DNA of 47,900 bases from a virus. The position numbers and the translations under genes were made by a program. Each line of letters begins with the position of its first letter. The first letter of the stretch is position 1. The notes beneath the pieces are model-generated. The model was not told the DNA's origin. It was given only the letters and a program-made list of their open reading frames with translations, and did not search any database. This document shows positions 14,918 through 39,461 of this stretch, in pieces. Where the stretch lies: IMG/VR virus record IMGVR_UViG_3300034073_003229, positions 1 through 47,900 of that record; one strand, 5' to 3'.

Positions 14918-15129
14918 TGAGTAACAATACTAGTATACAAATTAAATCTGTTCCTATAAATGTTTACAATTCAGATTTTTTAATTGCAACAGACGAATTA
15001 AAAACATACAGATTAAACATATGTAATTCTTGTGAAAATAAAGTAAATGAAATTTGTAAAGAATGTAGTTGCTTACTTATAGTTAGAACATCATATACAG
15101 ATAGTTTTTGTCCAATAGGAAAATGGTAA
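14917..15129 (+). CDS. Small cysteine-cluster (probable zinc-binding) protein
   Basis: A 70-residue protein whose ATG overlaps the stop of the collagen-like gene (TAATG), with GGAG upstream, so translation is coupled. The C-terminal half has C-x2-C, then C-x2-C-x-C, then a final C before PIGKW. This is a compact zinc-ribbon-like pattern; the ending CPIGKW is familiar from small marine-phage proteins. The N-terminal half has no recognisable motif. Its place between a fibre gene and LamG genes suggests a virion assembly or accessory role, but the function is unknown. Confidence 0.65.
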   Translation: MSNNTSIQIKSVPINVYNSDFLIATDELKTYRLNICNSCENKVNEICKECSCLLIVRTSYTDSFCPIGKW

Positions 15130-15699
15130 ATGGGTACATCATATGGTCCGGGTTCTATCCCTATTTTTTCTTCGTTAGTTGATTCTATTAATATAACTGG
15201 TGGTACTGTACTAAGTACGGTAGATGATCCTTCAAATGGGTACACTGTGACATTTCGTCATGATTTAGCTGGATGTGGTTCTCCAGATTCTGGTATTTTC
15301 ATTGTTATTCTTGATTTCATGATTTGGAGATATATGAGTTGTAGATTTAGATTATTGGGAACGGCATCTTGTTGGAGTTTTATGAATAGTTCGGGATATG
15401 GAAGTGCTACAGGCACTACCAGTGGTAACATGTTAAATTATGATGAAAGTTTAGGTGACAGAATAATTAGAACATATCTTGCACAAGATGAACCAGAATT
15501 TGTAACTCATAATAAAGTACTCGCATGTGACAATAATGCCGATAATTTTATGAGATTTAATGGAAATGAATATAAAATTTTTACTATGGTTAGACGGAGA
15601 AATGTAAACGGATCTCTTGCAGGAGTCCATCACGGTAGAAGTTGTAATTCAACGGGGGCAGGGGCATTGACAATAGTTGATCAAATAAGGGTATGGTAA
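15130..15699 (+). CDS. Unrecognised protein in the fibre operon
   Basis: A 189-residue protein. Its ATG directly follows the upstream stop codon, so it is probably translated by coupling. It is beta-rich with a hydrophobic stretch (GIFIVILDFMIWRYMSC) that could pass for a membrane segment, but it lies inside alternating polar sequence and is more likely a buried strand. There are several Cys residues but no regular metal motif. The terminal segment (GALTIVDQIRVW) resembles the last strand of a jelly-roll. Because LamG-type proteins follow, a lectin-like virion protein is possible. I do not recognise it. Confidence 0.5.
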   Translation: MGTSYGPGSIPIFSSLVDSINITGGTVLSTVDDPSNGYTVTFRHDLAGCGSPDSGIFIVILDFMIWRYMSCRFRLLGTASCWSFMNSSGYGSATGTTSGNMLNYDESLGDRIIRTYLAQDEPEFVTHNKVLACDNNADNFMRFNGNEYKIFTMVRRRNVNGSLAGVHHGRSCNSTGAGALTIVDQIRVW

Positions 15700-15700
15700 T

Positions 15701-16402
15701 ATGGCATTAGCACATTCGCCTAGAATTGTTACTGATGGACTAGTATTGTATTTGGATGCTACTAATCCAAAAAGTTATCCTGGTAGTGGTACTATTTGGA
15801 CGGATTTGAGTGGGAACGGTTACGGAGGATCATTAAGCGGATCAGTATCTTACTCTTCTTCTCCTAGTAGATTTGACACAAACGCCGTAGATAGACTTAC
15901 TCGGGATTACTTAACTACATCATCGCAAATAGTATTTAATGACTTAAGTAGTTACACTTTTGATTTTATCGTAAAATTAAGATCATCGGCACAAGCAACT
16001 TTTAATAGTTTAACTGGTAGATTAGCTACAACTCCTTGGATTTCCATTTATCCTGTAGATACCACAGGTGATAGTTGGAATATTAGATACAGACAAAGTG
16101 GAGGTACATATATTTCAACATCTAATGTTAATTACAACATACAAAATAATTGGGCTAATATAGTATTGTCTGTAGATACATCAAGAAACTTAAATTTTTA
16201 TTTGAATGGAATATTACAGGAAACAATTAACCCTACTACAACTTTATTTTATGTAGATTTGATAGGAGGTGGATATTCAGCTAGTGGTAATTATTATGCT
16301 CTTCAGGGATCTATTGCATCATGTAAGATATACAGTAAAACATTATCAGAACAAGAAATTCAGCAAAACTTTAATGCCATTCGAGGAAGGTTTGGATTAT
16401 GA
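15701..16402 (+). CDS. LamG/concanavalin-A-like jelly-roll protein, paralogue 1
   Basis: A 233-residue protein. The start VTDGLVLYLDATNPKSYPGS and the following WTDLSGNG are typical of phage and bacterial LamG-type (laminin G, concanavalin-A-like) domains. The ending, ASCKIYSKTLSEQEIQQNF followed by NAIRGRFGL, is the usual last strand and tail. LamG folds commonly bind carbohydrate. In this operon it is probably a virion-exposed sugar-binding protein or fibre tip. It overlaps the next gene by ATGA and is about half identical to it at both ends, indicating a tandem duplication. Confidence 0.75.
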   Translation: MALAHSPRIVTDGLVLYLDATNPKSYPGSGTIWTDLSGNGYGGSLSGSVSYSSSPSRFDTNAVDRLTRDYLTTSSQIVFNDLSSYTFDFIVKLRSSAQATFNSLTGRLATTPWISIYPVDTTGDSWNIRYRQSGGTYISTSNVNYNIQNNWANIVLSVDTSRNLNFYLNGILQETINPTTTLFYVDLIGGGYSASGNYYALQGSIASCKIYSKTLSEQEIQQNFNAIRGRFGL

Positions 16403-17092: not shown

Positions 17093-18988
17093 ATGGCAAC
17101 AACAGATCGTAACATAATTATTACACCTAACAGAAGTGGTAGTGCTGAACCAAATATAAAATTTATTGGTGCAGATGCTAGTTCTAGTGCTACTATAACA
17201 TTAAATGTATATAATTCTGGTACAACTGGGATTTTAAGTTTTGAAGGATCAGTAGGACAACTTTTTTCAATTTCAGATGATTTGTCTGGAACTATTTTTA
17301 GTGTAAATGATATAAGTGGAATACCAAGTATTGAAGTTTTAGATACTGGTGAAGTTAAATTAGCAGAATATAACGGTTTTGTAAATATATTAAATAGTAC
17401 TTCTGCAACTTCAACAAGTTCTGGAGCATTGCGTGTTACTGGGGGTATTGGTATTGGTGGTGATGTACATGTTGGTAAAGGTGTTTATGTTTCTGGTTAT
17501 GGACAAGTAATAAGTAATGCTGGAACATGGACTGGAGCAACAGTTTCTGGATTCCAAGGAGCACAGGGTCGTCAAGGGGCACAAGGATTTCAGGGAAATC
17601 AAGGACATCAAGGATTTCAAGGAGCACAAGGATTCCAAGGAGCACAGGGTCGTCAAGGGGCACAAGGATTTCAGGGAAATCAAGGACATCAAGGATTCCA
17701 GGGAGCACAGGGTAGACAAGGAGCACAGGGATCATCAGGAGTTCAAGGACCTCCGGGAGTGCAAGGACCTCCAGGTGTGCAGGGAGCACAGGGATTCCAG
17801 GGAGCACAGGGATCATCAGGAGTTCAAGGACCTCCGGGAGTGCAAGGACCTCCAGGTGTGCAGGGAGCACAGGGATTCCAGGGAGCACAGGGATCATCAG
17901 GAGTTCAAGGACCTCCGGGAGTGCAAGGACCTCTAGGTGTGCAGGGAGCACAGGGATTCCAGGGAGCACAGGGTAGACAAGGAGCACAGGGATCATCAGG
18001 AGTTCAAGGACCTCCGGGAGTGCAAGGACCTCCAGGTGTGCAGGGAGCACAGGGATTCCAGGGAGCACAGGGTAGACAAGGAGCACAGGGATCATCAGGA
18101 GTTCAAGGACCTCCGGGAGTGCAAGGACCTCCGGGAGTTCAAGGACCTCCGGGACCTCTAGGTGTTCAAGGTGCACAGGGATTTCAAGGAGCAACTGGTA
18201 TACAAGGTGCACAAGGACCAGCAGGATCGCAAGGTCCAGGTGGTTCACCGGGAGTTCAAGGGCCTCCAGGAGTTCAAGGACCTCCGGGACCTCCAGGTGT
18301 TCAAGGTGCACAGGGATTTCAAGGAGCAACTGGTATACAAGGTGCACAAGGGCCAACAGGAGCACAAGGACCAGCAGGAGCACAAGGTCCAGGAGGAGCA
18401 CCGGGTTCACAGGGGCCAGCAGGGGCACAAGGACCAGCAGGAACGCAGGGTGCACAGGGTAGACAAGGTTTCCAAGGACCTGCTGGATCACAAGGTCCGG
18501 GTGGACCTCCGGGAGCACAAGGACCACAAGGTTTCCAGGGCGCGCAGGGGTCAGCCGGTGCATCTACATCGACTCAGGCAACAGATGATACATCTACAAC
18601 CACATTGTATCCAATGATGGTTGCTTCAGCGGGATCACCTGAAACAATTAAAGTTACTACATCTAAATTAACCTTTAATGCATCTTCTGGTGATTTAAGT
18701 GCAACTAATTTTAATTCGTTGTCCGATATGGTTGCTAAGCAAAATATTAAAACATTGGAAAATTCTTTAGAAAAAATACTATTAATGAGAGGTGTATCGT
18801 TTGAATGGAAAGACAATCATCATAAATCTATTGGGGTAATTGCACAAGAAATAGAAAAAATAGTACCTGAAATAGTTAATACAAATGGTCAGGGCATGAA
18901 AGCAGTTTCATATGATAGTATTATAGGATTATTGATTGAATCTATTAAAGAACTAAATAAAAAAATAGAAAATTTGAGTAATAAATGA
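17093..18988 (+). CDS. Collagen-like tail fibre with C-terminal S74 intramolecular chaperone
   Basis: A 631-residue protein. Residues 1-150 are a beta-rich head domain with one Gly-Gly fibre motif and the [17 protein letters not shown] segment shared with the first collagen-like fibre. Residues 153-490 are Gly-X-Y, with many GPP and GVQ triplets besides GFQ and GAQ. Residues about 542-631 match the Peptidase_S74 family, the self-cleaving chaperone of endosialidases and long phage fibres: SDMVAKQNI, then [19 protein letters not shown], then a C-terminal coiled coil. The Ser544/Lys549 pair fits the catalytic Ser-Lys dyad, so trimerisation followed by release just before Ser544 is expected. Its stop overlaps the next gene by ATGA. 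Confidence 0.85.
17549..18562 (+). repeat. Collagen-like tract with 81-bp and 99-bp tandem units
   Basis: This encodes residues 153-490. A unit beginning GGATCATCAGGAGTTC starts at 17729, 17810, 17891, 17990 and 18089, so spacings are 81, 81, 99 and 99 nt. Copies are nearly identical; the third differs at CTAGGT versus CCAGGT. Both unit lengths are multiples of 9, keeping frame and collagen register. The near identity points to recent expansion. Confidence 0.9.
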
Positions 18989-19989
18989 GCTATAAAGTAG
19001 GGAGTTTTCATACTGCAATAACAGATTCTTATAATGCATACGTTGGGGATGCAAGAATATATTCGTCACATGGATCTTTTTTACCGCCAGCAATGGGAAT
19101 TGAAAACGGATACGTGGCTGGTGGAGTTTCCCCGCTCTCTAATTCTATAGATAGATTCCCATTTAATACTAATTTTACTACATCCACCGATATTGGAGAT
19201 TTGACTCAATCTAGATCTCAATCATCTTCTCAGGCATCCGCAACTTATGGTTTTACTTCTGGTGGATATGCTCCACCGAGTTTATCTGCTGGTTCCAATA
19301 CCATTGATAAATTTCCATTTAGTACACCTTTTACTACTGCAACTGATGCAGGTGATTTGAGTCAAAGAAGAAGAAATTCGTCAGGACATTCTTCTAATGA
19401 ATATGGTTATTCGTCAGGTGGATATATTGCTACGCCACAAGTAAATACTATTGATAGGTTTCCTTTATATTCACCATTTGCTACTGCAACTGATGCTGGG
19501 GATTTAAGTGGAATAAGAGAAGAGATGGCTGGGCATTCCTCTACAACTGACGGATATACATCTGGCGGATATTTGACTCCATCCACTAGACTAAATACAA
19601 TAGATAAATTTCCATTCAGTACACCGTTTACTACTGCATCAGATGTGGGTGATTTAAGTCAAGCTAGAGCTTTTATGGCTGGACAGTCTTCTGAAAATTA
19701 TGGTTATACTTCTGGTGGAAATACTCCAGCATTGACTAATATTATTGATAGGTTTCCATTTAATACTCCATTTGGGACTTCTACTGATGTTGGTGATTTA
19801 AGTTTTTCTAGACAGCGAAATGCTGGCATTTCTTCAAATATAAATGGTTATACTGCTGGTGGTATTTCACCCCCAACGGTAAATGTAATAGATAGATTTC
19901 CATTCAGTACGCCTTTTTCGGCTTCAACGGATATAGGTGATTTGAGTATGCCACTTGGAATACAACAGGCTGCCGGTAATCAAAATTAA
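18985..19989 (+). CDS. Six-repeat Kelch-like beta-propeller protein A
   Basis: A 334-residue protein starting in an ATGA overlap with the fibre gene. After a variable N-terminal module of about 40 residues come six repeats of about 47-50 residues. Each has an aromatic strand and diglycine (GYTSGG), a short variable loop, [12 protein letters not shown], then TATDVGDLS..R and a Gly-x-Ser-Ser turn. The order diglycine, hydrophobic-Asp, aromatic, Asp-Leu, Arg matches the Kelch repeat, so a six-bladed propeller is predicted. The last repeat stops before its final strand, which the first GYVAGG strand could supply as a velcro closure. It is probably a receptor-binding or fibre-tip protein. No enzymatic motif was seen. 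Confidence 0.65.
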
Positions 19990-22000
19990 TTATGTCATTA
20001 AAAATAACACAAACTAATATTGTTTCAGACCTTTTAAATGCTAGATTAAATGAAACATATGTTAGAACTTTGACTGTTTCGGAGCGTTTATCATATGCTG
20101 TTGGAACTAATTATGGATATGCGTCCGGTGGTGAACCTGTAGGTCCTGCGCCACCACTATCAATAAATGCTATTGATAGATTTCCTTTTAGTACTCCATT
20201 TGCCACTGCAACTGATATAGGAGATTTGGCTGGAACAGCTAATAGTTCAGCAGGAGTTTCATCGGACACTAATGGATATAGAATTGGTGGGGAAGAAGGT
20301 ACTCCAGTCGGAATAAATGCATTGGATACATTTCCATTCTCTACACCATTTACAACAGCTATTAATATAGCTACTTTAACAATTGCTAAATCACGTTCTG
20401 CCGGGCAATCTGGTATAACTGATGGATACAACTCTGGTGGGATTTCTTCTCCAGGAGTATTATTAAATACAATAGAAAGATTCCCATTTTCTACTATTTT
20501 TTCTTCTACCACCGATATTGCTGATTTATCTGCCCCTAGACAGTACGTAACAGGACATTCATCTGTTGATAATGGTTATACTTCTGGTGGAGGAACACCA
20601 TCTGTTACCACTACTATTAATAGGTTTCCATTTACTACTCCATTTGCCACAGCATCAACTGTAGGTAATTTAGCTACGGCCAAGGATACTACCGCAGGTC
20701 AATCATCTAATAGTCATGGGTATGCATCTGGTGGTGGTGCAGCTCCTGGATATGTTAATACTATTGAAAGATTTCCATTTAATACTCCTTTCACTACTGC
20801 TACTGATATTGGTGATTTATCGTCAGTGCGGGATAGAGCATCTGGGCAATCTTCAACAGAATACGGGTATTCATCGGGTGGGCAAACTGGTATCCCTAAT
20901 ACAACTTATGTTAATACAATTGATCGCTTCCCATTTAGCACACCTTTTACAACTGCAAGTGATATTGGTGATTTGGTTATAGCAAAAAGTGGAACTACTG
21001 GACAGGTGGATTAAAGAATGGCTATTAAAGTATATAATACAAAAGTTATAGATGATAATTATAGTTATACTATAGACAATCACTACTTAACCACCACCAC
21101 GGGTTTTGTTCAAATTACTGGTTTTCAAGGAGTAATAGCTGGTTATACTTCTGGTGGTCGAATTCCTCCAAGTACATATCGTAATACGATAGATAAGTTT
21201 CCATTTAGTACTCCATTTGCGACAGCCACTGACGTTGGTGATTTATCTCAAACTAAATACGCTGTTGGTGCTAATTCTTCCCCAACTGATGGTTTTGTGA
21301 CGGGTGGATTAATTCCTCCATATTCTAATACAGTTGATAAATTTCCATTTAGTACTCCATTTACAACATCTACGGATATTGGTGATATTACAGCAGCTAA
21401 ATACGAAATTTTTTCTCATTCTTCTGCTTCTCACGGATATACCGCAGGTGGATTTGGTCCAGCAGCTGTGTCAAATACTATAGATAAATTTCCTTTTAAC
21501 ACACCATTCACAACAGCATCTGATATTGGTGATTTATTTCAAGCTAGACAAAGTGCTGCATCAAATTCTTCTGATACTGATGGATATAGTATTGGTGGTA
21601 TTGTATCAGTTGCTACTAATGTAGGTGATAATTTCCCATTTTCTACCCCTTTTACTACTGCTTATTCAGTTGCCACGTTATCTCAATCTAGGTATGGATC
21701 ATCTGGGCAGTCCTCAGAAACTACTGGTTATATATCTGGTGGTCTTACACCTACTATCCCCGTAGCTAGAATAGATAGTTTTCCATTTAGCGCATTTTTT
21801 TCTAATACATCGAATATTGGAAATTTAGCTGCATCTACTAGTGGTCCTATTGGGCAATCTTCAATGACAGATGGATATGCTAGTGGTGGACGATCGCCGT
21901 CAGTCACCAATACAATTAATAAATTTCCTTTTAGTACGCCATTCGCAACTGCTACTGATGTAGGGGATTTATCGCAAGCTAGAGATACCGGTGGGGGTCA
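19114..22000 (+). repeat. Eighteen Kelch-like repeats in three tandem propeller genes
   Basis: Each unit is about 140-150 nt and includes close variants of TTTCCATTTAGTACACC and of ACTTCTGGTGG. With the twelve units at 27650-30300, about thirty copies of this core lie within 11 kb. The short conserved blocks alternate with variable loops, which would allow in-frame exchange between units or genes by homologous recombination. Confidence 0.8.
19992..21014 (+). CDS. Six-repeat Kelch-like beta-propeller protein B
   Basis: A 340-residue paralogue of the preceding gene, starting two bases after its stop. The N-terminal module (MSLKITQTNIVSDLLNARLN) belongs to the MxIKI type seen in the other propellers. 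Six repeats follow, with diglycine strands GYASGG, GYRIGG, GYNSGG, GYTSGG, GYASGG and GYSSGG. Repeat 2 is the most divergent (AINIATLTI in place of ATDIGDLS). Loops between the diglycine and the FPF core vary most in length and sequence (for example GEPVGPAPPLS versus GGTPSVTT); in propellers this is the surface used for ligand binding. A virion adhesin role is inferred from position only. Confidence 0.63.
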   Translation: MSLKITQTNIVSDLLNARLNETYVRTLTVSERLSYAVGTNYGYASGGEPVGPAPPLSINAIDRFPFSTPFATATDIGDLAGTANSSAGVSSDTNGYRIGGEEGTPVGINALDTFPFSTPFTTAINIATLTIAKSRSAGQSGITDGYNSGGISSPGVLLNTIERFPFSTIFSSTTDIADLSAPRQYVTGHSSVDNGYTSGGGTPSVTTTINRFPFTTPFATASTVGNLATAKDTTAGQSSNSHGYASGGGAAPGYVNTIERFPFNTPFTTATDIGDLSSVRDRASGQSSTEYGYSSGGQTGIPNTTYVNTIDRFPFSTPFTTASDIGDLVIAKSGTTGQVD

Positions 22001-22010
22001 TCAATACTAG
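21018..22010 (+). CDS. Six-repeat Kelch-like beta-propeller protein C
   Basis: A 330-residue paralogue, third in a tandem series. The N-terminal module is MAIKVYNTKVIDDNYSY and extends to about residue 42. Six repeats follow with diglycine strands GYTSGG, GFVTGG, GYTAGG, GYSIGG, GYISGG and GYASGG. Repeats 4 and 5 are degenerate in the ATDIGDL segment (AYSVATL and TSNIGNL). The protein ends LSQARDTGGGHQY, again lacking the last strand as expected for circular closure. It is the final gene before the promoter and palindrome of the modification cassette. Confidence 0.63.
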   Translation: MAIKVYNTKVIDDNYSYTIDNHYLTTTTGFVQITGFQGVIAGYTSGGRIPPSTYRNTIDKFPFSTPFATATDVGDLSQTKYAVGANSSPTDGFVTGGLIPPYSNTVDKFPFSTPFTTSTDIGDITAAKYEIFSHSSASHGYTAGGFGPAAVSNTIDKFPFNTPFTTASDIGDLFQARQSAASNSSDTDGYSIGGIVSVATNVGDNFPFSTPFTTAYSVATLSQSRYGSSGQSSETTGYISGGLTPTIPVARIDSFPFSAFFSNTSNIGNLAASTSGPIGQSSMTDGYASGGRSPSVTNTINKFPFSTPFATATDVGDLSQARDTGGGHQY

Positions 22011-22039
22011 TTGATATTTTTTTAAATTTGTGTTATAAT
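22011..22039 (+). promoter_or_regulatory. Sigma70-type promoter of the first modification cassette
   Basis: TTGATA at 22011-22016 and TATAAT at 22034-22039 are separated by 17 bases. Transcription is predicted to start near 22046, giving a leader of about 14 nt with no ribosome binding site before the ATG at 22060. The -10 box lies inside the left arm of a perfect inverted repeat. Confidence 0.65.
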
Positions 22040-22059
22040 AATACATTATAACACAAATT
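22025..22059. promoter_or_regulatory. Perfect 15-bp inverted repeat overlapping the -10 box, probable operator
   Basis: The left arm 22025-22039 (AATTTGTGTTATAAT) is the exact reverse complement of the right arm 22045-22059, with a 5-base spacer. The left arm contains the TATAAT box and the right arm ends directly before the ATG at 22060. No T-run follows, so it is not a standard terminator. A dimeric DNA-binding protein is the simplest explanation. A hairpin would also form in any read-through RNA from the fibre operon and could hide the start codon. Confidence 0.7.
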
Positions 22060-22725
22060 ATGAATTCTTTTGAAACATTATTCAAACAACATCGTGAAAA
22101 ATATACATCTAAATGGAGACATTATTTTTCTATATATGATAGACATTTATCTGATTTGATTGGAAAAGAATTTACACTTATAGAAATAGGCGTAAATCAA
22201 GGTGGATCGTTACAATTATGGAAAAAATATTTTGGAAATAAAGTTAAAATTATAGGTATAGATAAAAATAATGATTCATATTTTGAAGAATCTCAAATAA
22301 AAATTTTTATAGGTGATCAATCAGATGAAATTTTTTTAAAAAAAATTATAAATTCTATAGATTCCCCTACTGTAATTATTGATGATGGAAGCCACATACA
22401 AAGTCATATACTAAAATCTTTAAATATTTTATATCCCGCTCTTTCGTTTGGTGGTACTTATATAATTGAAGATTGTCACACATCTTATTGGCCTAGATTT
22501 GAAGGTGGGGTTAATTCACATTTAAATATAGTAGAAATTTTATCTAGATCAACACATGATGTTAATACTAGATGGTATAATCTACCTAAAATACCAATAT
22601 TATCAGATCTCAATTCAATTTGTTTTTATGATTCAATGATAGTGTTAGAAAAACAGGAAAATAATTGTAAAAGAATGAGCGTAGATGCGGATTCTACTGG
22701 TGCTAGAATAATAGAGGTAATATGA
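22060..22725 (+). CDS. Class I SAM methyltransferase, sugar O-methyltransferase-like
   Basis: A 221-residue protein. Motif I is LIEIGVNQGGSLQLWKKYFG followed by IGIDKNN, the SAM-binding loop and acidic residue. IIDDGSHIQSHI followed by FGGTYIIEDCHTSYWP is characteristic of the metal-dependent sugar O-methyltransferase group that includes the macrolide enzymes MycE and TylF; the Asp-Asp-Gly-Ser-His segment would carry metal and catalytic residues. The likely reaction is methylation of a sugar hydroxyl on a glycan, substrate unknown. It is first in the AT-rich cassette, and its stop overlaps the sulfotransferase start. Confidence 0.72.
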   Translation: MNSFETLFKQHREKYTSKWRHYFSIYDRHLSDLIGKEFTLIEIGVNQGGSLQLWKKYFGNKVKIIGIDKNNDSYFEESQIKIFIGDQSDEIFLKKIINSIDSPTVIIDDGSHIQSHILKSLNILYPALSFGGTYIIEDCHTSYWPRFEGGVNSHLNIVEILSRSTHDVNTRWYNLPKIPILSDLNSICFYDSMIVLEKQENNCKRMSVDADSTGARIIEVI

Positions 22726-23561
22726 AAACTGTTCATTTTTGTGGAGGCATGCCTAGATCAGGTAGCACGGTCTTGATGAATATTCTTCAACAAAATCCAA
22801 ACATATTTACTACCGGAACATGTGCATTATCAGATTTAATACAACAGCATGTTTTAGTAAAATCTAGATTTCGTGAACAATTTCAAGCTATGGATGTGAA
22901 ACAAGCTGATAAAGCTTTATATGGATTTGTAATGGGAGGTATAAATGGTTGGTTTAGTGAATTAACGACTAAACCATTGATAATTTCTAAAAATAGAAAT
23001 TGGTCAGGTATATTTCATATGTTTAAACAATCCAAATATATAGTAATGTTAAGAGATATACGTGACATAATTGAAAGTTTTGAAAAAATAAATTTTAATT
23101 CTTTGGCATTACATACAGTGGACAATCAATCCTATAATATAGTTTATGGAATGTCTGAGAATGAAAAATTAAATTATTATTTAAAATCTAAAAATTCGGT
23201 AAGTGCAAGTTTATATACAGAAATTCCTAGAATGATGGAATGGTTTCATAAAGATCCTTCCCGGGTTATCTTTATAAGATACGAAGATTTCACTAAAAAT
23301 CCAATATATATGTTGGAAAAATTATATAAATTTTTAACAGAAGAATACTATGAACATGATTTAGATAATATACCATCATCTACATTATATGAGCATGACA
23401 ATGCTTATTTTTGTGAGAGAACCTCACATAAAACAAACTCACAGTTTCAATATTATAAAGAACCATCTCGTAGTTTGTCTATGAAATTTCATAATAATAT
23501 TGTAAAAAATTTAAATTGGTATTACGAGGCTTTTTATCCAGATGAACTCAAATATACATAA
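22722..23561 (+). CDS. Sulfotransferase family protein
   Basis: A 279-residue protein. FCGGMPRSGSTVLMNILQQN near the N-terminus is the PAPS 5'-phosphosulfate-binding loop of sulfotransferases, and YIVMLRDIRDIIESF at about 107-121 fits the 3'-phosphate-binding segment (Arg ... Ser). Later, RVIFIRYEDFTKNP matches a strand conserved in the family. The enzyme is expected to move sulfate from PAPS to a hydroxyl on a glycan, protein or small molecule. It shares ATGA with the methyltransferase and overlaps the next gene by 20 nt. DNA here is very AT-rich (11 G/C in 23041-23100). Confidence 0.78.
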   Translation: MKTVHFCGGMPRSGSTVLMNILQQNPNIFTTGTCALSDLIQQHVLVKSRFREQFQAMDVKQADKALYGFVMGGINGWFSELTTKPLIISKNRNWSGIFHMFKQSKYIVMLRDIRDIIESFEKINFNSLALHTVDNQSYNIVYGMSENEKLNYYLKSKNSVSASLYTEIPRMMEWFHKDPSRVIFIRYEDFTKNPIYMLEKLYKFLTEEYYEHDLDNIPSSTLYEHDNAYFCERTSHKTNSQFQYYKEPSRSLSMKFHNNIVKNLNWYYEAFYPDELKYT

Positions 23562-24099
23562 CATATTTTCAGTCCCTATATGGGGTTATATTTTTAATAA
23601 TGAAAAATATCATTCGGAAAATTATATTGAAAAAATAATACAGTTAAGTAAAACAACTGAAACAGTCAAAAAAAGTAATCAATATGGGTGGCAATCATCT
23701 GATGAATTACATAAACTGCCTGTATTTGCAGAATTTGTTAAGCATGTGAATTCTATATGTAACAATTCTTTGAATGAAATAAAACCAAATTCTCCTAAAA
23801 TTGGAATAACGGAAATGTGGGCCAATATTAATTATAAAAATTCATATAATCATCACCATATCCATTCTGGAGTTATATCTGGAGTTTTTTATTTAAAAAT
23901 ACCAAAAAATTGTGGCAGATTAATTTTAGTAAATCCAGCGATTCGTTCAGATGGAAACTTTATTAGAGTCAATAATTATGGCGTTGAGCCTATTAAATTG
24001 GCATGTATTTTATTTCCATCATGGTTGGAACATTATGTTGAACCAAATATATCGGATGAAGAGCGTATTAGTATAAGTTTTAATACAAATTTTATATGA
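23542..24099 (+). CDS. 2OG-Fe(II) oxygenase (TIGR02466-type)
   Basis: A 185-residue protein. NIFSVPIWGYIF at the start and NHHHIHSGVISGVFYLKIP at about 108-126 are typical of the short TIGR02466-like putative 2-oxoglutarate/Fe(II) oxygenases common in T4-like marine phages. His residues in HHHIHSG would supply the first metal ligands, the His in PSWLEHYVEP the distal one, and the Arg in EERISISF the 2OG carboxylate contact. The substrate is not known for this family. The start overlaps the sulfotransferase by 20 nt, so translation is probably coupled. Confidence 0.75.
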   Translation: MNSNIHNIFSVPIWGYIFNNEKYHSENYIEKIIQLSKTTETVKKSNQYGWQSSDELHKLPVFAEFVKHVNSICNNSLNEIKPNSPKIGITEMWANINYKNSYNHHHIHSGVISGVFYLKIPKNCGRLILVNPAIRSDGNFIRVNNYGVEPIKLACILFPSWLEHYVEPNISDEERISISFNTNFI

Positions 24100-24809
24100 A
24101 AAAACTTATAGTAACAATGTGTATGAATAACTGGGAACCAGAAATAACAAATCTTACGTTCCCATTAATGAAATTTCATGCCAAAAAAATTGGAGCAGAT
24201 TTCTTAATAATTGATGAAAGAAAATTTGAAAAATTACCTTTACAATTAGAAAGATTTCAGATTTATGATATTTCAAAAAATTATGATTGGATAATTCAAC
24301 TAGATGCTGATTTACTGATGCATCCAGACATGCCAGATTTAACTCAAAATATTTCTAAAGATTTTACTTTAATTAGTAGATGGGATTTGTTGTCAAAAAG
24401 ATTTAAATCTGATCATTATTTCAATAGAGATGGTAGATTTATATCTGCTCCTGGATTTTTTACGATTACTTCTGATTGGTGCAGAGATTTTTGGAAACTT
24501 CCTACTGATATTGATTTGGAAACTGCTCTTAGTAATACAACACCTCTGTTACATGAGTTTGATGGTAGAAAAGTTGATAATACCCATATAGTTTTTGATT
24601 ACTTAATAAGTAGAAATATAGCAAAATATGGACTGAAAGTAAAAAGCTTTCAAGAAATTTTTAGTATTTTAGACGAAAAGTTTAAAATAGGTGTTATAGA
24701 AGACTATATCTGTCACAATTCATGGTTGCCAATACATCATAAAAGGCAACACTTGAAAAATGTAATCGAGAAACATTGGAAAATAAATATAGAAAGGTTG
24801 CCTTTGTAG
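24096..24809 (+). CDS. GT-A-fold glycosyltransferase-like protein
   Basis: A 237-residue protein starting in an ATGA overlap. The layout is that of a nucleotide-diphospho-sugar transferase: an N-terminal VTMCMNNWEPE strand, LERFQIYDISKNYDWIIQLD leading into D-A-D (the metal-binding DxD motif) at about residues 69-71, and HNSWLP near the C-terminus, which resembles the His of GT8-like enzymes. It is soluble, with no membrane segment. The expected role is transfer of a sugar from a nucleotide donor, acceptor unknown. It is followed by 11 nt and the double oxygenase. Confidence 0.6.
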   Translation: MKKLIVTMCMNNWEPEITNLTFPLMKFHAKKIGADFLIIDERKFEKLPLQLERFQIYDISKNYDWIIQLDADLLMHPDMPDLTQNISKDFTLISRWDLLSKRFKSDHYFNRDGRFISAPGFFTITSDWCRDFWKLPTDIDLETALSNTTPLLHEFDGRKVDNTHIVFDYLISRNIAKYGLKVKSFQEIFSILDEKFKIGVIEDYICHNSWLPIHHKRQHLKNVIEKHWKINIERLPL

Positions 24810-24820
24810 CATAAAATAAT

Positions 24821-26125
24821 ATGGAAACAATAAAATATTTTGAAAAAAATGGTTACGTCGTTCTTACTGGAGCATTAAGTGAAAAATTATGTGATGATTT
24901 AACGTCATATATGTTTGAGTTATTTGAAAAAAGGGAATTAACAAAGGATGATCAATGTCCATTAAGTGATTCTATCTATGGATCTCCAGTTTTTGATAAA
25001 TTTTTACAAGATTTTGCTGAACCTATCGGAAAACATATAGGTAAAAAATTACTACCAACTTATACTTATAGTAGAATTTATCGACCGGGTGAAATATTAA
25101 AAAAGCATAAAGATAGACCGGCTTGTGAAATAAGCGCCACTCTTACTTTAGGATTTGATAAAAAACCTATTTGGCCTATTTTTGCAGACGAAAACAAACA
25201 AACTGCTATCACCTTAAATAAGGGTGATATGATGGTATATAAAGGGTGTGAATTACTTCATTGGAGAGAAGAGTTTAAAGGAAAGTGGCATGTTCAAGTA
25301 TTTTTTCATTATGTAGATGCTAATGGTCCTTATAAAAATCATTATATGGATGGCAGAAATAATTTTGGTACACAAAAACATGCAAATGTCAATACAGTGA
25401 CACCTAAAAAAGTATCGTTGGGAGAAGTTAAAGAGGTTGCGTTTAATGATAATATTGATGAAAATAATAAAAAACCTATTAATGTAAAAAAACCTGTATT
25501 TAACTCTATTATTATTCCAAATAATGATGATTCTTTTCCTGGATACTTATGTTTTGATAATTCAAACTTTAGAGATTTAAAATTTACTAATGAAGAATGT
25601 GATGCATTAATTGCTTTAACTAAATCTGTATATGGAAATCAAGCATCAGTTGGTGGAAGCATTGATAATAGTGCAGTTCAACAAAATATACGTAGCGCTA
25701 TAATTTATGATTTATTAAATGATTCAGAAAATAGATGGATATACGAAAAAGTTTTAAAATCAATTGTAATTGCAAATAAGATTCATTTTGATTTTGAAAT
25801 TTCTGGAATTATACATAATTTACAGTTGATTGAATATAATACAAATGATAAGAAATATCCAGGTCACTATAATTGGCATGTAGATGCAGGTAATGGTGAC
25901 CCTGCTACTCGAAAAATATCATATGTTGCTCAAATAAGTGATCCATCAGATTATGAAGGTTGTGAACTGGTAGTTAATAACTTTGGTAATGAAATAATCG
26001 CTAATAAAGAAAGAGGATCAGTACACTTATTTCCAAGTTATATGGTTCATAAAGTCACACCTATAACTAAAGGAAAAAGATTTTCTTTAGTAATTTGGGT
26101 TCATGGTTCAAGGAGATTTAGATAA
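24821..26125 (+). CDS. Two-domain 2OG-Fe(II) oxygenase (prolyl-hydroxylase-like repeats)
   Basis: A 434-residue protein with two distinct oxygenase domains. Domain 1 (about 1-175): YRPGEILKKHKDRPACEISA gives H-x-D, and LLHWRE the distal His; the usual Arg region reads GKWHVQVFFHYVD, so the 2OG-binding Arg may be replaced. Domain 2 (about 225-434): HYNWHVDAGNGD gives H-x-D, MVHKVTPITKGKRFSLVIW the distal His and Arg, as in PKHD/P4H-type hydroxylases. One domain may be catalytic and the other regulatory or substrate-binding. It is the last gene of the first cassette, and an AGGAG inside its 3' end serves the next gene. Confidence 0.75.
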   Translation: METIKYFEKNGYVVLTGALSEKLCDDLTSYMFELFEKRELTKDDQCPLSDSIYGSPVFDKFLQDFAEPIGKHIGKKLLPTYTYSRIYRPGEILKKHKDRPACEISATLTLGFDKKPIWPIFADENKQTAITLNKGDMMVYKGCELLHWREEFKGKWHVQVFFHYVDANGPYKNHYMDGRNNFGTQKHANVNTVTPKKVSLGEVKEVAFNDNIDENNKKPINVKKPVFNSIIIPNNDDSFPGYLCFDNSNFRDLKFTNEECDALIALTKSVYGNQASVGGSIDNSAVQQNIRSAIIYDLLNDSENRWIYEKVLKSIVIANKIHFDFEISGIIHNLQLIEYNTNDKKYPGHYNWHVDAGNGDPATRKISYVAQISDPSDYEGCELVVNNFGNEIIANKERGSVHLFPSYMVHKVTPITKGKRFSLVIWVHGSRRFR

Positions 26126-26126
26126 A

Positions 26127-27056
26127 ATGAGTGAAAATAATAAAAACGAAGTTGCTATATTTGAAGAAATACGTAGAGACTTAACTGTCAATCAACAGTT
26201 AAAAGTTCCAATGAGTTATGTTTTTGGAAGAGGAACTGTTGGTAATATTGCAAGTTTTGGTGGAAATTCTTTAGCTGAAAATGCAGTTAAAGTTGATCAA
26301 GCTATGGTGGTATGCACCGAACTCCAAAAAATATGGAACCATAGTCATACACAATGGTCATGGAAACACATTAATATGGATAATGTGTCTCCCTTTGATA
26401 ATATGAGACAGATTTCTGCTGAATTAGCCGGTAAAAAGAATGCTCTAAATGAAGCTAAATGGAGACATGTAGAATCTGAGCTAAAATTAAAAAAATTAGA
26501 AGATGAATTACGTAGAGGTAAAGAAGATAACACAATTGATTATTGGAGAGAAGTTGAAATAAACATAAAAATTGCTAAATTAAAAGAAGGTTTGTCCGAA
26601 GGGATGACTTATATAGAAGGTGCAATGAAAGATGTTCTTGCTCTTAATGAATTGTATGAACAATTAACTGCAAGAATATCTAATTTTTCAGAAGCTGATT
26701 TAGAAAAAGCAGAAAGTAAAAACCATTTACGTCGTGCATTAGCACAATCAATACGAGATGTAAGAATGACTGGTTCTATTACTAAAGGTGAACAAGAATT
26801 AATGGAACAAATTGGTGTAAATCCAATGAAATTACAAAAAATACTAAGATCGTATGTGGCTCAAGAAGAAAAGCAAGAAACCTGGGGCATTGATGAGTTA
26901 TACAACTTTATAAATAAATTAACTGATGAGTTAATTGATGAACATAAAATAGATGTAATCCGAATGAATTTACAAGGATTTACGCAAGATTCACCGGAAC
27001 AGTATTCTTACATAAATAAGGTTGCTAAACTAAAAAATAATGACGGAGAAAGTTAA
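26127..27056 (+). CDS. Conserved T4-like phage protein with coiled coil, unknown function
   Basis: I place the start at ATG 26127, 11 nt after AGGAG at 26111-26115 and just past the upstream stop, rather than at ATG 26103 inside the previous gene; this gives 309 residues. The middle (about 90-190) is strongly helical and charged (ALNEAKWRHVESELKLKKLE), probably a coiled coil. GRGTVGNIASFGGNSLAEN near the N-terminus is a Gly-rich loop I associate with proteins of T4-like cyanophages. No catalytic motif was found. It forms a block with the next two small genes. Confidence 0.6.
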   Translation: MSENNKNEVAIFEEIRRDLTVNQQLKVPMSYVFGRGTVGNIASFGGNSLAENAVKVDQAMVVCTELQKIWNHSHTQWSWKHINMDNVSPFDNMRQISAELAGKKNALNEAKWRHVESELKLKKLEDELRRGKEDNTIDYWREVEINIKIAKLKEGLSEGMTYIEGAMKDVLALNELYEQLTARISNFSEADLEKAESKNHLRRALAQSIRDVRMTGSITKGEQELMEQIGVNPMKLQKILRSYVAQEEKQETWGIDELYNFINKLTDELIDEHKIDVIRMNLQGFTQDSPEQYSYINKVAKLKNNDGES

Positions 27057-27388
27057 TGGCAATTGTAGAATATTTGCTTCATAGAAATGAACAAGGTCAC
27101 AAAATTGTACCACCATTTATTATAGATGGTGGTCATTGGTGGAATCCTGTTGATTTTACGATGGTAGGGTGGATAGATGATGTCCGTGATTACTATGTTC
27201 CTGATACTCTTATAATTTTATCAAAAGAAGAGTTTGCCAATAGATTATTAAGTATGCATAATGTAAATCCATTAATGGCAGAAAGCCAATCACCTGAAGC
27301 TGAACCAACTCCAATGACTAATGAACAAGTTATTGATATTGCAAATGAATGGTATGATAAATTTACACAAACTCATACTGGAAGTTAA
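27056..27388 (+). CDS. Conserved small T4-like phage protein, unknown function
   Basis: A 110-residue protein coupled to the previous gene by TAATG. The pattern DGGHWWNPVDFTMVGWIDD, then DYYVPDTLIILSKEEF, then a Pro/Glu linker and a helical end (NEQVIDIANEWYDKF) is recurrent in small proteins of T4-like marine phages. There is no signal peptide, membrane segment or metal motif. Its role is unknown. It sits between the modification cassette and the second propeller group. Confidence 0.6.
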   Translation: MAIVEYLLHRNEQGHKIVPPFIIDGGHWWNPVDFTMVGWIDDVRDYYVPDTLIILSKEEFANRLLSMHNVNPLMAESQSPEAEPTPMTNEQVIDIANEWYDKFTQTHTGS

Positions 27389-27391
27389 TTT

Positions 27392-27520
27392 ATGGAATTA
27401 TTGATTGCTAATAAATTAAAAGAAATGGATTTAATTGAACTTATTGAGTTTTTAAGAAAGCTCAAGTTCGAAGATTATGATGCATTTAGAAAGTTGAAAG
27501 AAGTATTGGATGATATTTAA
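27392..27520 (+). CDS. 42-residue helical protein
   Basis: ATG at 27392 to TAA at 27518-27520, sharing a base with the ATG of the next propeller gene (TAATG), which supports real translation. The product is almost entirely helical and charged (MDLIELIEFLRKLKFEDYD), with spaced Leu and Ile suggesting an amphipathic helix pair. Without it, the 131-nt gap would be unusually long for this cluster. Its function is unknown. Confidence 0.6.
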   Translation: MELLIANKLKEMDLIELIEFLRKLKFEDYDAFRKLKEVLDDI

Positions 27521-28524
27521 TGGCTATAACTATCTATTCAGATAAAATTGTAATAGGTGATTACACATTATTGGAAACACCAACTGGTTTTTCTATTGAT
27601 GGTAATTTAGATGCGAATTCATTTGGTATAACAGCCTCTACAGCATATACACTCGGGGGTACTACTGGGACTCCAGTTAATACTATTAATAGTTTTCCAT
27701 TCTCTACCCCATTTACAATTGCAACTGATTCTGGAGATTTATCTCAAGCTAAGTCTATTGCTGCAGGGGCATACTCATCTACTAATGGGTATTCTGCTGG
27801 TGGATTTACACCAACTGCAATAAATACTATTGATAATTTTCCATTTAGTACACCCTTTATAACAGCAACTGATATAGGTGATTTATCAGTTGTTAGAGCT
27901 AATGCGGGTGGAGGTAATTCTTCATCTTTACATGGATATGTGTCAGGGGGGCAATCAAATCCTTCTTTTCTGTATTTAAATTCTACTGATCGATATCCAT
28001 TTAGTACACCATTTGCAACTGCTACACCTGTAATAAATCTTTCAAGTAACCGAATTGCACATGCAGCACATTCTTCTTCAACTGATGGATATGTTTCAGG
28101 TGGTAATAACCCTCCAGTTGGAAGACTTAACAGCATCGAAAAATTTCCATTTAGTTCACCATATACAATTACTGATATAGGAGATTTGACATCAACTATA
28201 CAGGCTACTTCCGGTCATTCATCGCCCGATAGCGGATATACTGCTGGTGGAAATTCTGGTTCACCTACTAATATAATTCAAAGTTTTCCATTCAGTACTC
28301 CGTTTACGACTGCTACTGATATTGGAGACTTAGTAATATCTAGAGAATATCCTGGTGGTAATTCTTCTGCAACTGATGGGTATAACTCCGGTGGAAGAAC
28401 ACCTCCGATACCAGCATATTATAATATCATAGATAAATTTCCTTTTACTACTCCATTTGTCACAGCTGTTGATATTGGTGACATAACGGTATCTGTGGGT
28501 GGAATAGTTGGAGTTCAAGGATAA
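27520..28524 (+). CDS. Six-repeat Kelch-like beta-propeller protein D
   Basis: A 334-residue paralogue of the three propellers near 19-22 kb, starting in a TAATG overlap. The N-terminal module (MAITIYSDKIVIGDYTLLET, then a TGFSIDG turn) closely matches those of the next two genes. The six diglycine strands are AYTLGG, GYSAGG, GYVSGG, GYVSGG, GYTAGG and GYNSGG. The third repeat is odd (YPFSTPFATATPVINLSS) and the fourth is one residue shorter (SSPYTITDIGDL). It ends in GGIVGVQG without a final strand. It is inferred to be a virion adhesin; no biochemical role is visible. Confidence 0.63.
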   Translation: MAITIYSDKIVIGDYTLLETPTGFSIDGNLDANSFGITASTAYTLGGTTGTPVNTINSFPFSTPFTIATDSGDLSQAKSIAAGAYSSTNGYSAGGFTPTAINTIDNFPFSTPFITATDIGDLSVVRANAGGGNSSSLHGYVSGGQSNPSFLYLNSTDRYPFSTPFATATPVINLSSNRIAHAAHSSSTDGYVSGGNNPPVGRLNSIEKFPFSSPYTITDIGDLTSTIQATSGHSSPDSGYTAGGNSGSPTNIIQSFPFSTPFTTATDIGDLVISREYPGGNSSATDGYNSGGRTPPIPAYYNIIDKFPFTTPFVTAVDIGDITVSVGGIVGVQG

Positions 28525-28527
28525 ATT

Positions 28528-29301
28528 ATGGCAATTAAAATAACACAAAATAGTATATTATTTGGTGAATACGCATTAAGTGAAACTCCTACAGGTTTAA
28601 CATTTGATGGTGAAATTCAAGGATATTTTCCGCCTGCAATTTTAACTGTCGGTTCAGCGCCTACTCCCACTCCTACCCCTTCGCCTCCACCACCTCCACC
28701 ACCGCCTCCACCACCTCCACCACCACCTCCTCCTCCTCCCCCAGGAAGTAATACTCCTACTGCACCATTGTTGACTTTTAATTATACTGCACCAACAACA
28801 ACAGTCGGTCCAATAAATATTTACTATAGACGTCTTTTGTTTAAGACAATATATACTGCGGCAGAATTAAATACTGCTGGATGGACATCTTCAGATACTA
28901 TATATAGAATATCTTTTTATGTAACTAGTGTTCCAGTATATCAACCTATACCAGGATGGACCATTGGGATGCAAAACACTGCTTCTGCTGTTGGATCAGA
29001 TTTGACAAGTGGATGGACTACTGTTCGTGCAGCTACCAATTCTCCAACTTTTACAGTAAATACAGAAAATATTATTACTTTAGATATTGCTTTTACTTGG
29101 GATGGAACTAGTAATCTTGCTATCGGTTTTGCTAGTTCTCAAATTAGTCCTACATATAGCCCATCAGGTGCAGTTCGAGGTAATACCCCTGGAAACTCAA
29201 GAAGTGCCCGCACGGACTCAGCAGGTAGCTATACGCTGATAACCGCAGCTCCTACGACCACTACATATCGTCCAATAATAACACTATATAATTCATTATA
29301 A
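28528..29301 (+). CDS. Poly-proline adhesin-like protein sharing the propeller N-terminal module
   Basis: A 257-residue protein. Residues 1-33 (MAIKITQNSILFGEYALSET, then TGLTFDG) are the same module as in its propeller neighbours. Residues 46-52 are Thr/Pro and Ser, followed by 20 consecutive prolines (53-72), a rigid polyproline-II spacer. Residues about 78-257 are beta-rich: YYRRLLFKTIYTAAELNTAG, then ISFYVTSVP, then WTIGMQNT, TLDIAFTWDGTSNLAIGF. This resembles the jelly-roll seen in large secreted adhesins of Bacteroidota. It looks like an anchor-spacer-head protein in which the propeller has been swapped for another binding head. Confidence 0.62.
   Translation: MAIKITQNSILFGEYALSETPTGLTFDGEIQGYFPPAILTVGSAPTPTPTPSPPPPPPPPPPPPPPPPPPPPGSNTPTAPLLTFNYTAPTTTVGPINIYYRRLLFKTIYTAAELNTAGWTSSDTIYRISFYVTSVPVYQPIPGWTIGMQNTASAVGSDLTSGWTTVRAATNSPTFTVNTENIITLDIAFTWDGTSNLAIGFASSQISPTYSPSGAVRGNTPGNSRSARTDSAGSYTLITAAPTTTTYRPIITLYNSL
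28684..28743 (+). repeat. Run of 20 proline codons
   Basis: Twenty consecutive CCN codons (CCT, CCA, one CCG, one CCC). It is a clear C-rich island in AT-rich DNA. Translation of such a run normally depends on host EF-P. The mixed codons argue against simple slippage of one triplet. Confidence 0.95.
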
Positions 29302-30335
29302 TGACAATAACGATATCTGGAAGTTCAATAAATTTTGGTACTTATTCATTAGAAATAAGTGATACTGGTATTTCTTTAACTAATACTGGCACTTTATATG
29401 CTAATGCATTTACTGATTTGCACCCTAATGTAATGGGTCAAATAGAAGGATATAATGCTGGTGGATTAGTTCCGCCTTATACTAATACTATTGACAAATT
29501 TCCATTTAGTTCACCTTTTGCTATAACTGATGTTGGTGATTTATCTTCTGTAAGATTTACACTTGCTCCGCAAAGTTCTTCAAGTAATGGTTATTTTTCT
29601 GGAGGAACTGTGCCTCCAGTAACTCCAATAAATAGTATTGATAGTTTTCCATTTAGTACTCCATTTGCAACAGCAACTGATGCCGGTGATTTATCGCAAT
29701 CTAGAAGTGAAGCTAGCGGACAGTCTTCTTCAACTGAAGGGTATACTTCTGGTGGATTTGCCCCTCCATTTTCTAATACAATAGATAAATTTCCATTTAG
29801 TACACCATTTACAACTGCTTCTGATGTAGGTGATCTAACACAAGCTAAAAATAGATTAAGCGGTCATTCTTCTGCAACAGAAGGCTATAATTCTGGTGGC
29901 AATTTGCCATCTCAGACTAATGTAATTGAAAAATTTCCTTTCAGCACTCCAGTTTCAGTATCTGACATCGGAGATTTAGCCCAAAGTAAATATTTTCACA
30001 CTTCACATTCTTCAAAATTGTATGGATTTTCTGCGGGTGGATCAATATTTACGCCTAGTACTAGAATAAATACAATAGAGCGTTTCCCTTTTAGTACACC
30101 ATTTACTACCGCTTCTGGTATTGGATATTTAAGTCAATCAAGAGATAGGGCTGGTTCTCAAAATTCTACAACTGAAGGGTATACTTCTGGTGGAACATTA
30201 ACTCCCCCGGCTCCCACTCCAGCTAATAATATTAATACTATTGATAAGTTTCCATTTACTACTAGATTCATAACTGCAACTGATGTGGGTGATTTAGCTG
30301 ATAATAGGACTGATGTATCTGGAAATCAATATTAA
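29301..30335 (+). CDS. Six-repeat Kelch-like beta-propeller protein E
   Basis: A 344-residue paralogue, coupled by TAATG to the poly-Pro gene. The N-terminal module is MTITISGSSINFGTYSLEIS followed by a longer linker. It has six repeats with diglycine strands GYNAGG, GYFSGG, GYTSGG, GYNSGG, GFSAGG and GYTSGG; repeats 1 and 4 carry the one-residue deletion also seen in protein D. The loop before the last core is long and Pro-rich (TLTPPAPTPANNIN). It ends LADNRTDVSGNQY. This is the fifth and last propeller of the window. Confidence 0.63.
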   Translation: MTITISGSSINFGTYSLEISDTGISLTNTGTLYANAFTDLHPNVMGQIEGYNAGGLVPPYTNTIDKFPFSSPFAITDVGDLSSVRFTLAPQSSSSNGYFSGGTVPPVTPINSIDSFPFSTPFATATDAGDLSQSRSEASGQSSSTEGYTSGGFAPPFSNTIDKFPFSTPFTTASDVGDLTQAKNRLSGHSSATEGYNSGGNLPSQTNVIEKFPFSTPVSVSDIGDLAQSKYFHTSHSSKLYGFSAGGSIFTPSTRINTIERFPFSTPFTTASGIGYLSQSRDRAGSQNSTTEGYTSGGTLTPPAPTPANNINTIDKFPFTTRFITATDVGDLADNRTDVSGNQY

Positions 30336-30412: not shown

Positions 30413-31267
30413 ATGACTATAAAAATTCTTGTAATGGGATTGCCAGGATCTGGTAAAACATACTTCTCTGAAAAGTTAAAAAAATATTTAGAAGAAAATT
30501 CCAGTTATGATTCAATGCCCGCATATCGTATGGGTCAGTATGAATTACCTCCTATACATTATAAATCTAAAGTAGACTGGTTTAATGCCGATGAAATTAG
30601 AAAAAAATTTAATGATTGGGACTTTTCTAATGAAGGTAGAATTAGACAAAGTTTACGTATGGCAGAATTTGCTTTAAAATGTTCTGGTGATTTTGTTATA
30701 TGCGACTTTGTTGCACCGTTACCAGAAATGCGCTCTAATTTTAAAGCCGATTGGACAATATGGATGGATACTGTTAATGAAAGTATATATGAAGATACTA
30801 ATAAATTATTTGTTCAACCAGAAGTTTATGATTTTAGAATAAATGAAAAAAATGCAGATAAATGGGTAAAATTTGTTGGGGATAGTATACTTTTTAATAA
30901 AAAAAGACCCATTTTTGATTATAAAAAAGAATCTACTTTGATGTTAGGTAGGTATCAACCATGGCATGCTGGACATCGTGCTCTTTTTGAAAAAGCTTTA
31001 TCAAAGACTGGACAAGTTATTATACAAGTTAGGGATTGTAAAGGATGGAATGGCAGTAATCCATTTGATTTTAATCAGATAAAAAATTTTATTAAACGTG
31101 ATTTAGATTTACTTTATCAAGGTCAATATGATATAATATTGGTACCTAATATAACTAATATCGTTTATGGTAGAGATGTTGGATATAATATAGAAAAAAT
31201 AGAATTAACTGAAGAAATAGAAAAAATATCGGCAACAGATATTAGAAAAAGTATGGGCCTTGTATAA
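30413..31267 (+). CDS. Kinase-nucleotidyltransferase fusion (APS-kinase-like plus NMNAT/cytidylyltransferase-like)
   Basis: A 284-residue protein. Residues 9-16 (GLPGSGKT) are a Walker A loop. WFNADEIRKKFNDWDFSNEG, then RQSLRMAEFA and VICDFVAPLPEMR, follow the layout of APS kinase. The second domain (about 172-284) has MLGRYQPWHAGHRALFEKAL with HxGH at 185-188 and ISATDIRKS at the end, as in NMN adenylyltransferases and related cytidylyltransferases. It may phosphorylate and then nucleotidylate one substrate, or act in PAPS, NAD or nucleotide-sugar supply. The second domain is far too short for a classical ATP sulfurylase. It is coupled to the next gene by TAATG. Confidence 0.68.
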   Translation: MTIKILVMGLPGSGKTYFSEKLKKYLEENSSYDSMPAYRMGQYELPPIHYKSKVDWFNADEIRKKFNDWDFSNEGRIRQSLRMAEFALKCSGDFVICDFVAPLPEMRSNFKADWTIWMDTVNESIYEDTNKLFVQPEVYDFRINEKNADKWVKFVGDSILFNKKRPIFDYKKESTLMLGRYQPWHAGHRALFEKALSKTGQVIIQVRDCKGWNGSNPFDFNQIKNFIKRDLDLLYQGQYDIILVPNITNIVYGRDVGYNIEKIELTEEIEKISATDIRKSMGLV

Positions 31268-31971
31268 TGTTTAAAACACCATTTCCTCATATAGTTATTG
31301 ATAATTTTTTAAATGAGGAATTAGCACTTGAATTATCAAATGAATTCCCAGATTATAAAGATGAAAAATGGTATTATTACGATAATCCATTAGAAAATAA
31401 AAAAGCCAATAATAATTGGGGTATGTTTCCTTCAACAACATATAATTTTTTTCACTACTTAAATTCTGATATTTTTATAAATTCTTTAAAAACAGACTTT
31501 AATATAGCAAAATTATATCCCGATCATGGATTACATGGCGCAGGATGGCATATGCATTCTGCTGGTGGTAAACTAAATGTTCATTTGGATTATTCAATCC
31601 ATCCTAAGTTAAAATTACAACGAAAATTAAATTTAATTTTATATCTTACACCTGATTGGAATCCAGCATGGGGCGGTAATTTAGAACTATGGGAACATAA
31701 TCCAATAACTAATCAGCCTTTAAAATTATCAAAAACAATAGAAAATAAATTTAATAGAGCAGTTATTTTTGATACTACCCAGAATTCTTGGCATGGATTT
31801 GCGGAAGAAATTAAATGCCCGAATAATGTATATAGAAAAAGTATTGCAATGTATTACTTGACAAATTTGGCAGAAGATACTGAAGTTAGATATCGAGCTT
31901 TATATTCTCCAAGTAAAGACCAAATGGGTAATCCATCAATTGAAGAATTAATAAGAAAGAGATCACGTTAA
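31267..31971 (+). CDS. 2OG-Fe(II) oxygenase (prolyl-4-hydroxylase-like)
   Basis: A 234-residue protein. FPHIVIDNFLNEELALELS is the usual start of this family. LNVHLDYSIHPKL at about 106-118 gives the H-x-D iron ligands, followed by KLNLILYLTPDWNPAWGGNL, a strong family signature. NSWHGF supplies the distal His and YRKSIAMYYL the 2OG-binding Arg, so all core residues are present. It would hydroxylate a protein side chain or small molecule; the substrate is unknown. It lies in the cassette between the kinase fusion and the glycosyltransferase-oxygenase fusion. Confidence 0.8.
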   Translation: MFKTPFPHIVIDNFLNEELALELSNEFPDYKDEKWYYYDNPLENKKANNNWGMFPSTTYNFFHYLNSDIFINSLKTDFNIAKLYPDHGLHGAGWHMHSAGGKLNVHLDYSIHPKLKLQRKLNLILYLTPDWNPAWGGNLELWEHNPITNQPLKLSKTIENKFNRAVIFDTTQNSWHGFAEEIKCPNNVYRKSIAMYYLTNLAEDTEVRYRALYSPSKDQMGNPSIEELIRKRSR

Positions 31972-31973
31972 TT

Positions 31974-33710: not shown

Positions 33711-33711
33711 A

Positions 33712-39434: not shown

Positions 39435-39441
39435 AGTATAA

Positions 39442-39448
39442 TATTTAG
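39442..39448 (-). promoter_or_regulatory. Candidate late promoter of the HNH-gp14-gp15-Nudix operon
   Basis: CTAAATA read on the minus strand. By T4 late-promoter geometry transcription would start near 39436, two bases before the HNH ATG. It touches the oppositely directed gp13 element at 39449-39456, so the two promoters overlap back to back. Confidence 0.5.
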
Positions 39449-39456
39449 CATAAATA
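39449..39456 (+). promoter_or_regulatory. Late promoter of gp13 with predicted leaderless start
   Basis: CATAAATA (7 of 8 to the T4 late consensus) ends five bases before the gp13 ATG. In T4 this octamer covers about -13 to -6, which puts +1 on the A at 39462. No ribosome binding site exists upstream, and the upstream gene is divergent. Confidence 0.6.
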
Positions 39457-39461
39457 TATTC

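Follow-up and report, generated by a model that had tools for sequence, protein, structure and literature searches.

Reports of Kelch proteins in bacteriophages go back years, but no function has been assigned to them (PMC5259590, PMC7760394), and in the latter report their function is called unknown. Three of them have been reported for Pectobacterium phage CBB, one of which, CBB_552, was detected in the purified virion by mass spectrometry (PMC5259590). The propellers described here have the same fold as CBB_550, CBB_552 and CBB_554 and as proteins of Burkholderia phage BcepSaruman and Synechococcus phage S-SKS1 (BFVD). However, compared with the three Kelch proteins of CBB, our family and its relatives are arrayed at 5-13 places, and their N-termini are swapped. 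We found no description of such an amplified, head-swapping Kelch family in the open-access literature, and the family links the phage Kelch proteins to tail-fiber modules.

Two further systems invite comparison. The fibers of extracellular contractile injection systems combine a beta-propeller with collagen (PMC12923769). The same combination occurs in one relative of our proteins (locus L060, positions 13814-15559), in which a propeller and a collagen-like shaft belong to one protein, whereas the window, i.e., the whole 47.9-kb virus record that was analyzed, keeps collagen fibers and propellers as separate genes. The second system is the major tropism determinant (Mtd) of a Bordetella phage, a protein with a C-type-lectin fold. 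Some relatives of the window family carry an Mtd_N domain in front of the propeller, so that the head occupies the place of the receptor-binding domain, but this head is a Kelch propeller. A diversity-generating retroelement was also considered, but no reverse transcriptase (RVT_1) match was found in 11 records, which may be fragments.

Repeat architecture and predicted fold

The source of the window is an uncultured, T4-like phage. The first-pass annotation had proposed five six-repeat paralogues, and all five open reading frames were recovered where it had placed them (Table 1), each with six repeats of 44-53 aa. The GYxSGG strands and FPF cores that it had described also recur six times each per paralogue, 47-55 residues apart. 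Departures from the first motif across the paralogues are one each of AYTLGG, GYRIGG, GYSIGG and GFVTGG, while one FPL and one YPF occur among the 30 cores, and the diglycine is retained in all 30 window blades. Paralogues 1 and 2 are 48% identical. The HMM phrog_19111, to which PHROGs assigns no function, matches all five proteins (E 1.9e-15 to 2.1e-27).

Table 1 Features of the propeller locus and its surroundings (window positions).
Feature	Position	Strand	Remarks
Collagen-like tail-fiber protein, 1252 aa	11159-14917	+	Upstream; PF01391 1.9e-106; tail fiber PHROGs
LamG/concanavalin-like lectin-fold protein	15701-16402	+	Same block; PF13385 1.2e-11
Collagen-like fiber with C-terminal S74 chaperone domain	17093-18988	+	PF01391 2.1e-53; PF13884 1.9e-13
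Kelch-propeller paralogue 1, 334 aa	18985-19989	+	Six blades, ~19108-19986, after unique ~41-aa N-terminus
Kelch-propeller paralogue 2, 340 aa	19992-21014	+	Six blades, start ~20115
Kelch-propeller paralogue 3, 330 aa	21018-22010	+	Six blades, start ~21141
Sulfotransferase	22722-23561	+	PF13469 1.9e-16; recurs in 17/39 non-redundant propeller loci
2OG-Fe(II) oxygenase	23542-24099	+	PF13759 1.2e-19; recurs in 15/39 loci
2OG-Fe(II) oxygenase	24821-26125	+	PF13640 1e-11; recurs in 26/39 loci
317-aa protein, no assigned family	26103-27056	+	Recurs in 25/39 loci; weak phrog_1409 match, E 0.004
110-aa protein, no assigned family	27056-27388	+	Recurs in 23/39 loci
Kelch-propeller paralogue 4, 334 aa	27520-28524	+	Six blades, start ~27643
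Shared ~32-aa N-terminal beta module, paralogue 4	27520-27615	+	HMM without window sequences, E 3.1e-13
Non-propeller protein: shared N-terminal module, long poly-Pro linker, different C-terminal domain	28528-29301	+	HMM without window sequences, E 7.7e-12
Kelch-propeller paralogue 5, 344 aa	29301-30335	+	Six blades, start ~29448
Shared N-terminal module, paralogue 5	29301-29396	+	HMM without window sequences, E 4.2e-9
Tail-sheath-stabilizer type virion gene	36126-37517	-	Downstream; phrog_11196 5.5e-88; phrog_227 2.1e-20
Tail sheath protein	41164-44127	+	Downstream; phrog_10581 7.8e-222

Relatives came from a single scan of IMG/VR, in which the 18985 protein was the query and 65 loci were obtained; they were picked at ≥3 motif hits, so that seven-repeat proteins were not excluded by the selection. 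With a repeat HMM, six copies were detected in all but two of 181 proteins (the five paralogues and 176 IMG/VR relatives), i.e., in 179, so that the six blades are not due to chance and are a property of the family. One of the two exceptions, in locus L004, is truncated by the end of the locus. The other, in L044 (1857-2894), matches a six-blade gene of L041 (11557-12741) apart from a few substitutions and the in-frame absence of exactly one blade, which may represent either real recombination or assembly collapse.

The expectation that AlphaFold would return closed six-bladed propellers was borne out in both paralogues modeled, the 18985 and 27520 proteins. The AF2 model of the former (70 aligned sequences) reached a pLDDT of 89.3 and a pTM of 0.87, with the propeller strands arranged as 6x4; for the latter, one of five models converged, and the best model had a pLDDT of 91.9. 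As the annotation had anticipated, the ring is closed in the models, with the final strand (residues 330-333) completing it, and alignments to crystal Kelch domains cover residues 39/40-334. The best PDB matches of the 18985 model are Kelch domains (Foldseek; 5nkp, E 3.5e-18), on which it superimposes with Z 38-40 and an rmsd of 1.7-2.1 over 271-281 residues (VIA-align); the 27520 model gives Z 40-42. The proposal of a Kelch-like propeller is well supported by Z 38-42 over ~280 residues in comparisons with crystal structures of Keap1, KLHL and designed Kelch proteins. With Keap1, KLHL2/3/12/17 and the designed SAKe6 the predicted window propellers share a ring closed by six blades of four strands each, the diglycine strand and the strand register. 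They differ from these proteins in their phage origin, in being only 14-20% identical and below the Pfam Kelch_1 cut-off, in that BTB/BACK domains were not found with them, and in that the residues of the variable face are not conserved.

A Pfam search with PF01344 (Kelch_1), a family named in the annotation, gave no match in the window and no record above the curated cut-off. Short repeat matches to the Pfam families DHR-2_Lobe_B, DNase_NucA_NucB, THDPS_M and DUF4907, mostly without an individually significant stretch, were rejected as artefacts. The family profile matches KLHL12 with E 0.0019-0.0022 over the whole sequence. Since the best single stretch scores just 13.5 bits, this sequence link is weak when taken alone, although it is independent of the structural matches and agrees with a Kelch fold. 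The predicted Kelch fold is secure, for two paralogues by model and for the other three by homology.

N-terminal modules and genomic context

In each of the 174 IMG/VR relatives that have six blades, at most 0-4 residues follow the propeller before the protein ends, and N-terminal parts of ~20-500 aa precede it. Among these parts we recognized Mtd_N (E 1e-17 and 2.9e-14), TIG (2.2e-6), a glycine-rich domain and, in one relative, collagen (5.2e-13) together with a T7 tail-fiber N-domain just below threshold (2.4e-5). The five window paralogues carry neither an Mtd_N nor a collagen fusion and their N-termini match no known attachment module; in relatives, Mtd_N or collagen precedes the variable C-terminal head. 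Where N-termini are 80-90% identical, the paired propellers have a median identity of 64% versus a background median of 58%. Judged by sequence comparison, the N-terminal parts have evidently been exchanged wholesale, including tail-fiber modules in relatives.

Within the window, paralogues 4 and 5 share a short beta module (Table 1), which in the single good AF2 model of paralogue 4 consists of four short strands (pLDDT ~80-89). The N-terminus of paralogue 3 bears a marginal likeness to it (N-terminal HMM E 0.09), and two of the five paralogues have an N-terminus without a recognizable module. The same module begins the protein encoded at 28528, which had no Pfam or PHROG match and no relatives in a scan of viral contigs, and which belongs to this set although it has no propeller. 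In locus L037, an 81-aa open reading frame at 12458 consists of an N-terminal module and a single blade and is likely a deletion remnant.

The propeller genes sit between fiber genes upstream and genes for sheath stabilizer, neck, sheath and tube proteins downstream, and the first of them overlaps the 17093 fiber gene by 4 nt. Genes near the relatives encode T4 neck, gp15, sheath, portal and terminase proteins as well as S74 and collagen proteins. A tblastn search of 50,697 phage records with the 317-aa and 110-aa proteins encoded at 26103 and 27056 gave no match. The late-promoter motif TATAAATA is rarer than chance in the window and is absent from the 120 nt that precede each propeller gene, so that it lends no support to a virion role. 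Adhesin genes alternate with modification-type genes at 22722-26125 and 31267-35707, in the neighborhood of the collagen-like fibers: 2OG-Fe(II) oxygenases (23542, 24821, 31267), a sulfotransferase (22722) and glycosyltransferases (31974, 34448), whose products could possibly modify fibers or heads. Elsewhere in the window, positions 143-4801 encode a 1552-aa tail-fiber-type protein with repeated CxRDxGLIVD-like segments, whose weak Phycobilisome match (1.9e-5) is probably spurious, and a homing-endonuclease-like open reading frame with a NUMOD3 motif (38712-39488, minus strand) lies among the virion genes.

Variable loops and a putative host-binding role

We calculated loop entropies from 653 blades of relatives and the 30 window blades, with 809 of 834 repeats classified. 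Mean entropy is low (0.6-1.1 bits) in the conserved strands B, C and D and in the C-D loop, while the B-C loop varies in both residues and length, and the three D-A loop residues after a conserved R/K are the most variable single positions (3.3-3.7 bits). The first-pass annotation had described conserved cores and the loop after the diglycine as most variable, which holds for the cores and for loop length (8 lengths in 30 blades); in single residues, however, the three D-A positions rank first (3.3-3.4 bits). Strand order supports a predicted placement of both variable loops, B-C and D-A, on the same side of the propeller, where Keap1 and related Kelch domains bind their ligands. The asymmetry between the faces is strong but not absolute, since three residues of the A-B loop, on the opposite face, have a mean entropy of 2.5-2.6 bits and are thus fairly variable as well.

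From fusion partners, gene position, context and variability we infer, with a probability of about 0.75, that the propellers are a modular set of putative virion-attached, host-binding heads. Modular receptor-binding heads had already been suggested in the annotation; this reading is strengthened by the fusions, the virion-gene context and the combination of conserved N-termini with diverged propellers. Each gene encodes a short module at the N-terminus and, behind it, a single predicted Kelch propeller of six blades in a closed ring, with which the protein ends. The N-terminal part would anchor the protein to a fiber or to the baseplate, while glycan or protein ligands on the host surface would be bound by the variable face, which corresponds to the ligand face in Keap1 and KLHL proteins. 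One phage could thereby carry several heads of different specificities, and new heads would be supplied by gene duplication and recombination. If true, this would add to the host-recognition scaffolds a class that carries its own repertoire, and would provide an annotation for phrog_19111.

Other roles have to be weighed against the same evidence. As decoration or structural proteins of the tail or capsid surface, or as whiskers, the propellers might provide weak non-specific adhesion or particle stability in place of specific receptor recognition. Such a role would be compatible with the virion-gene context, with the high copy number (ten IMG/VR records have 5-13 places each) and with diverse N-termini, which could address many virion sites. 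We nevertheless consider it unlikely, as variation concentrated on one face and propellers that diverge faster than their N-termini suit recognition better than stability.

Kelch domains elsewhere are often protein-binding adaptors inside cells. It is conceivable that the phage proteins are injected or expressed early and, like the Kelch proteins of poxviruses and eukaryotes, bind host or defense proteins; intracellular peptide binding is common among Kelch folds, and the nearest solved natural structures are intracellular adaptors. The Mtd_N, collagen and TIG fusions in relatives and the location in a virion-gene block between fiber and sheath genes do not fit an intracellular function, which makes it very unlikely. 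That the propellers are enzymes, e.g., capsule depolymerases, seems highly improbable, even though six-bladed propellers have been reported among Klebsiella phage depolymerase domains (PMC11448410): conservation is confined to fold-type positions that recur in every blade, no fixed active site was recognized on the candidate ligand face, which is hypervariable, and the Kelch domains that head the structural matches are not enzymes.

An extension of the reading as host-binding heads, which we put forward tentatively and regard as somewhat doubtful, is that of an antibody-like repertoire, in which a fixed Kelch scaffold would display hypervariable loops on one face, and 5-13 copies per phage with differing N-terminal addresses would be directed to different virion sites. 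Renewal would proceed by duplication, blade loss and inter-repeat recombination without a retroelement, and the sulfotransferase and 2OG oxygenases whose genes lie between the heads may decorate them.

Distribution and evolution of the family

The propeller family is widespread in uncultured T4-like phages and has one cultured carrier. This carrier, Synechococcus phage S-SKS1, was the only sequenced isolate found by tblastn (36% identity), and its copies are located at the ends of the record, near tail-fiber and baseplate-wedge genes. The ten larger IMG/VR records contain 5-13 matching places each, a few of which are fragments. A scan of bacterial genomes gave six matches, all on MAG contigs. 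The five window paralogues form one clade (99, FastTree) and look like old duplicates at the sequence level, because their synonymous sites are near saturation. Recent gene conversion among the window repeats was rejected (codon identity 0.55 versus 0.51 expected). Unlike those of the window, the paralogues of locus L001 are strongly homogenized, with a codon identity at synonymous sites of 0.79 versus 0.48 expected.
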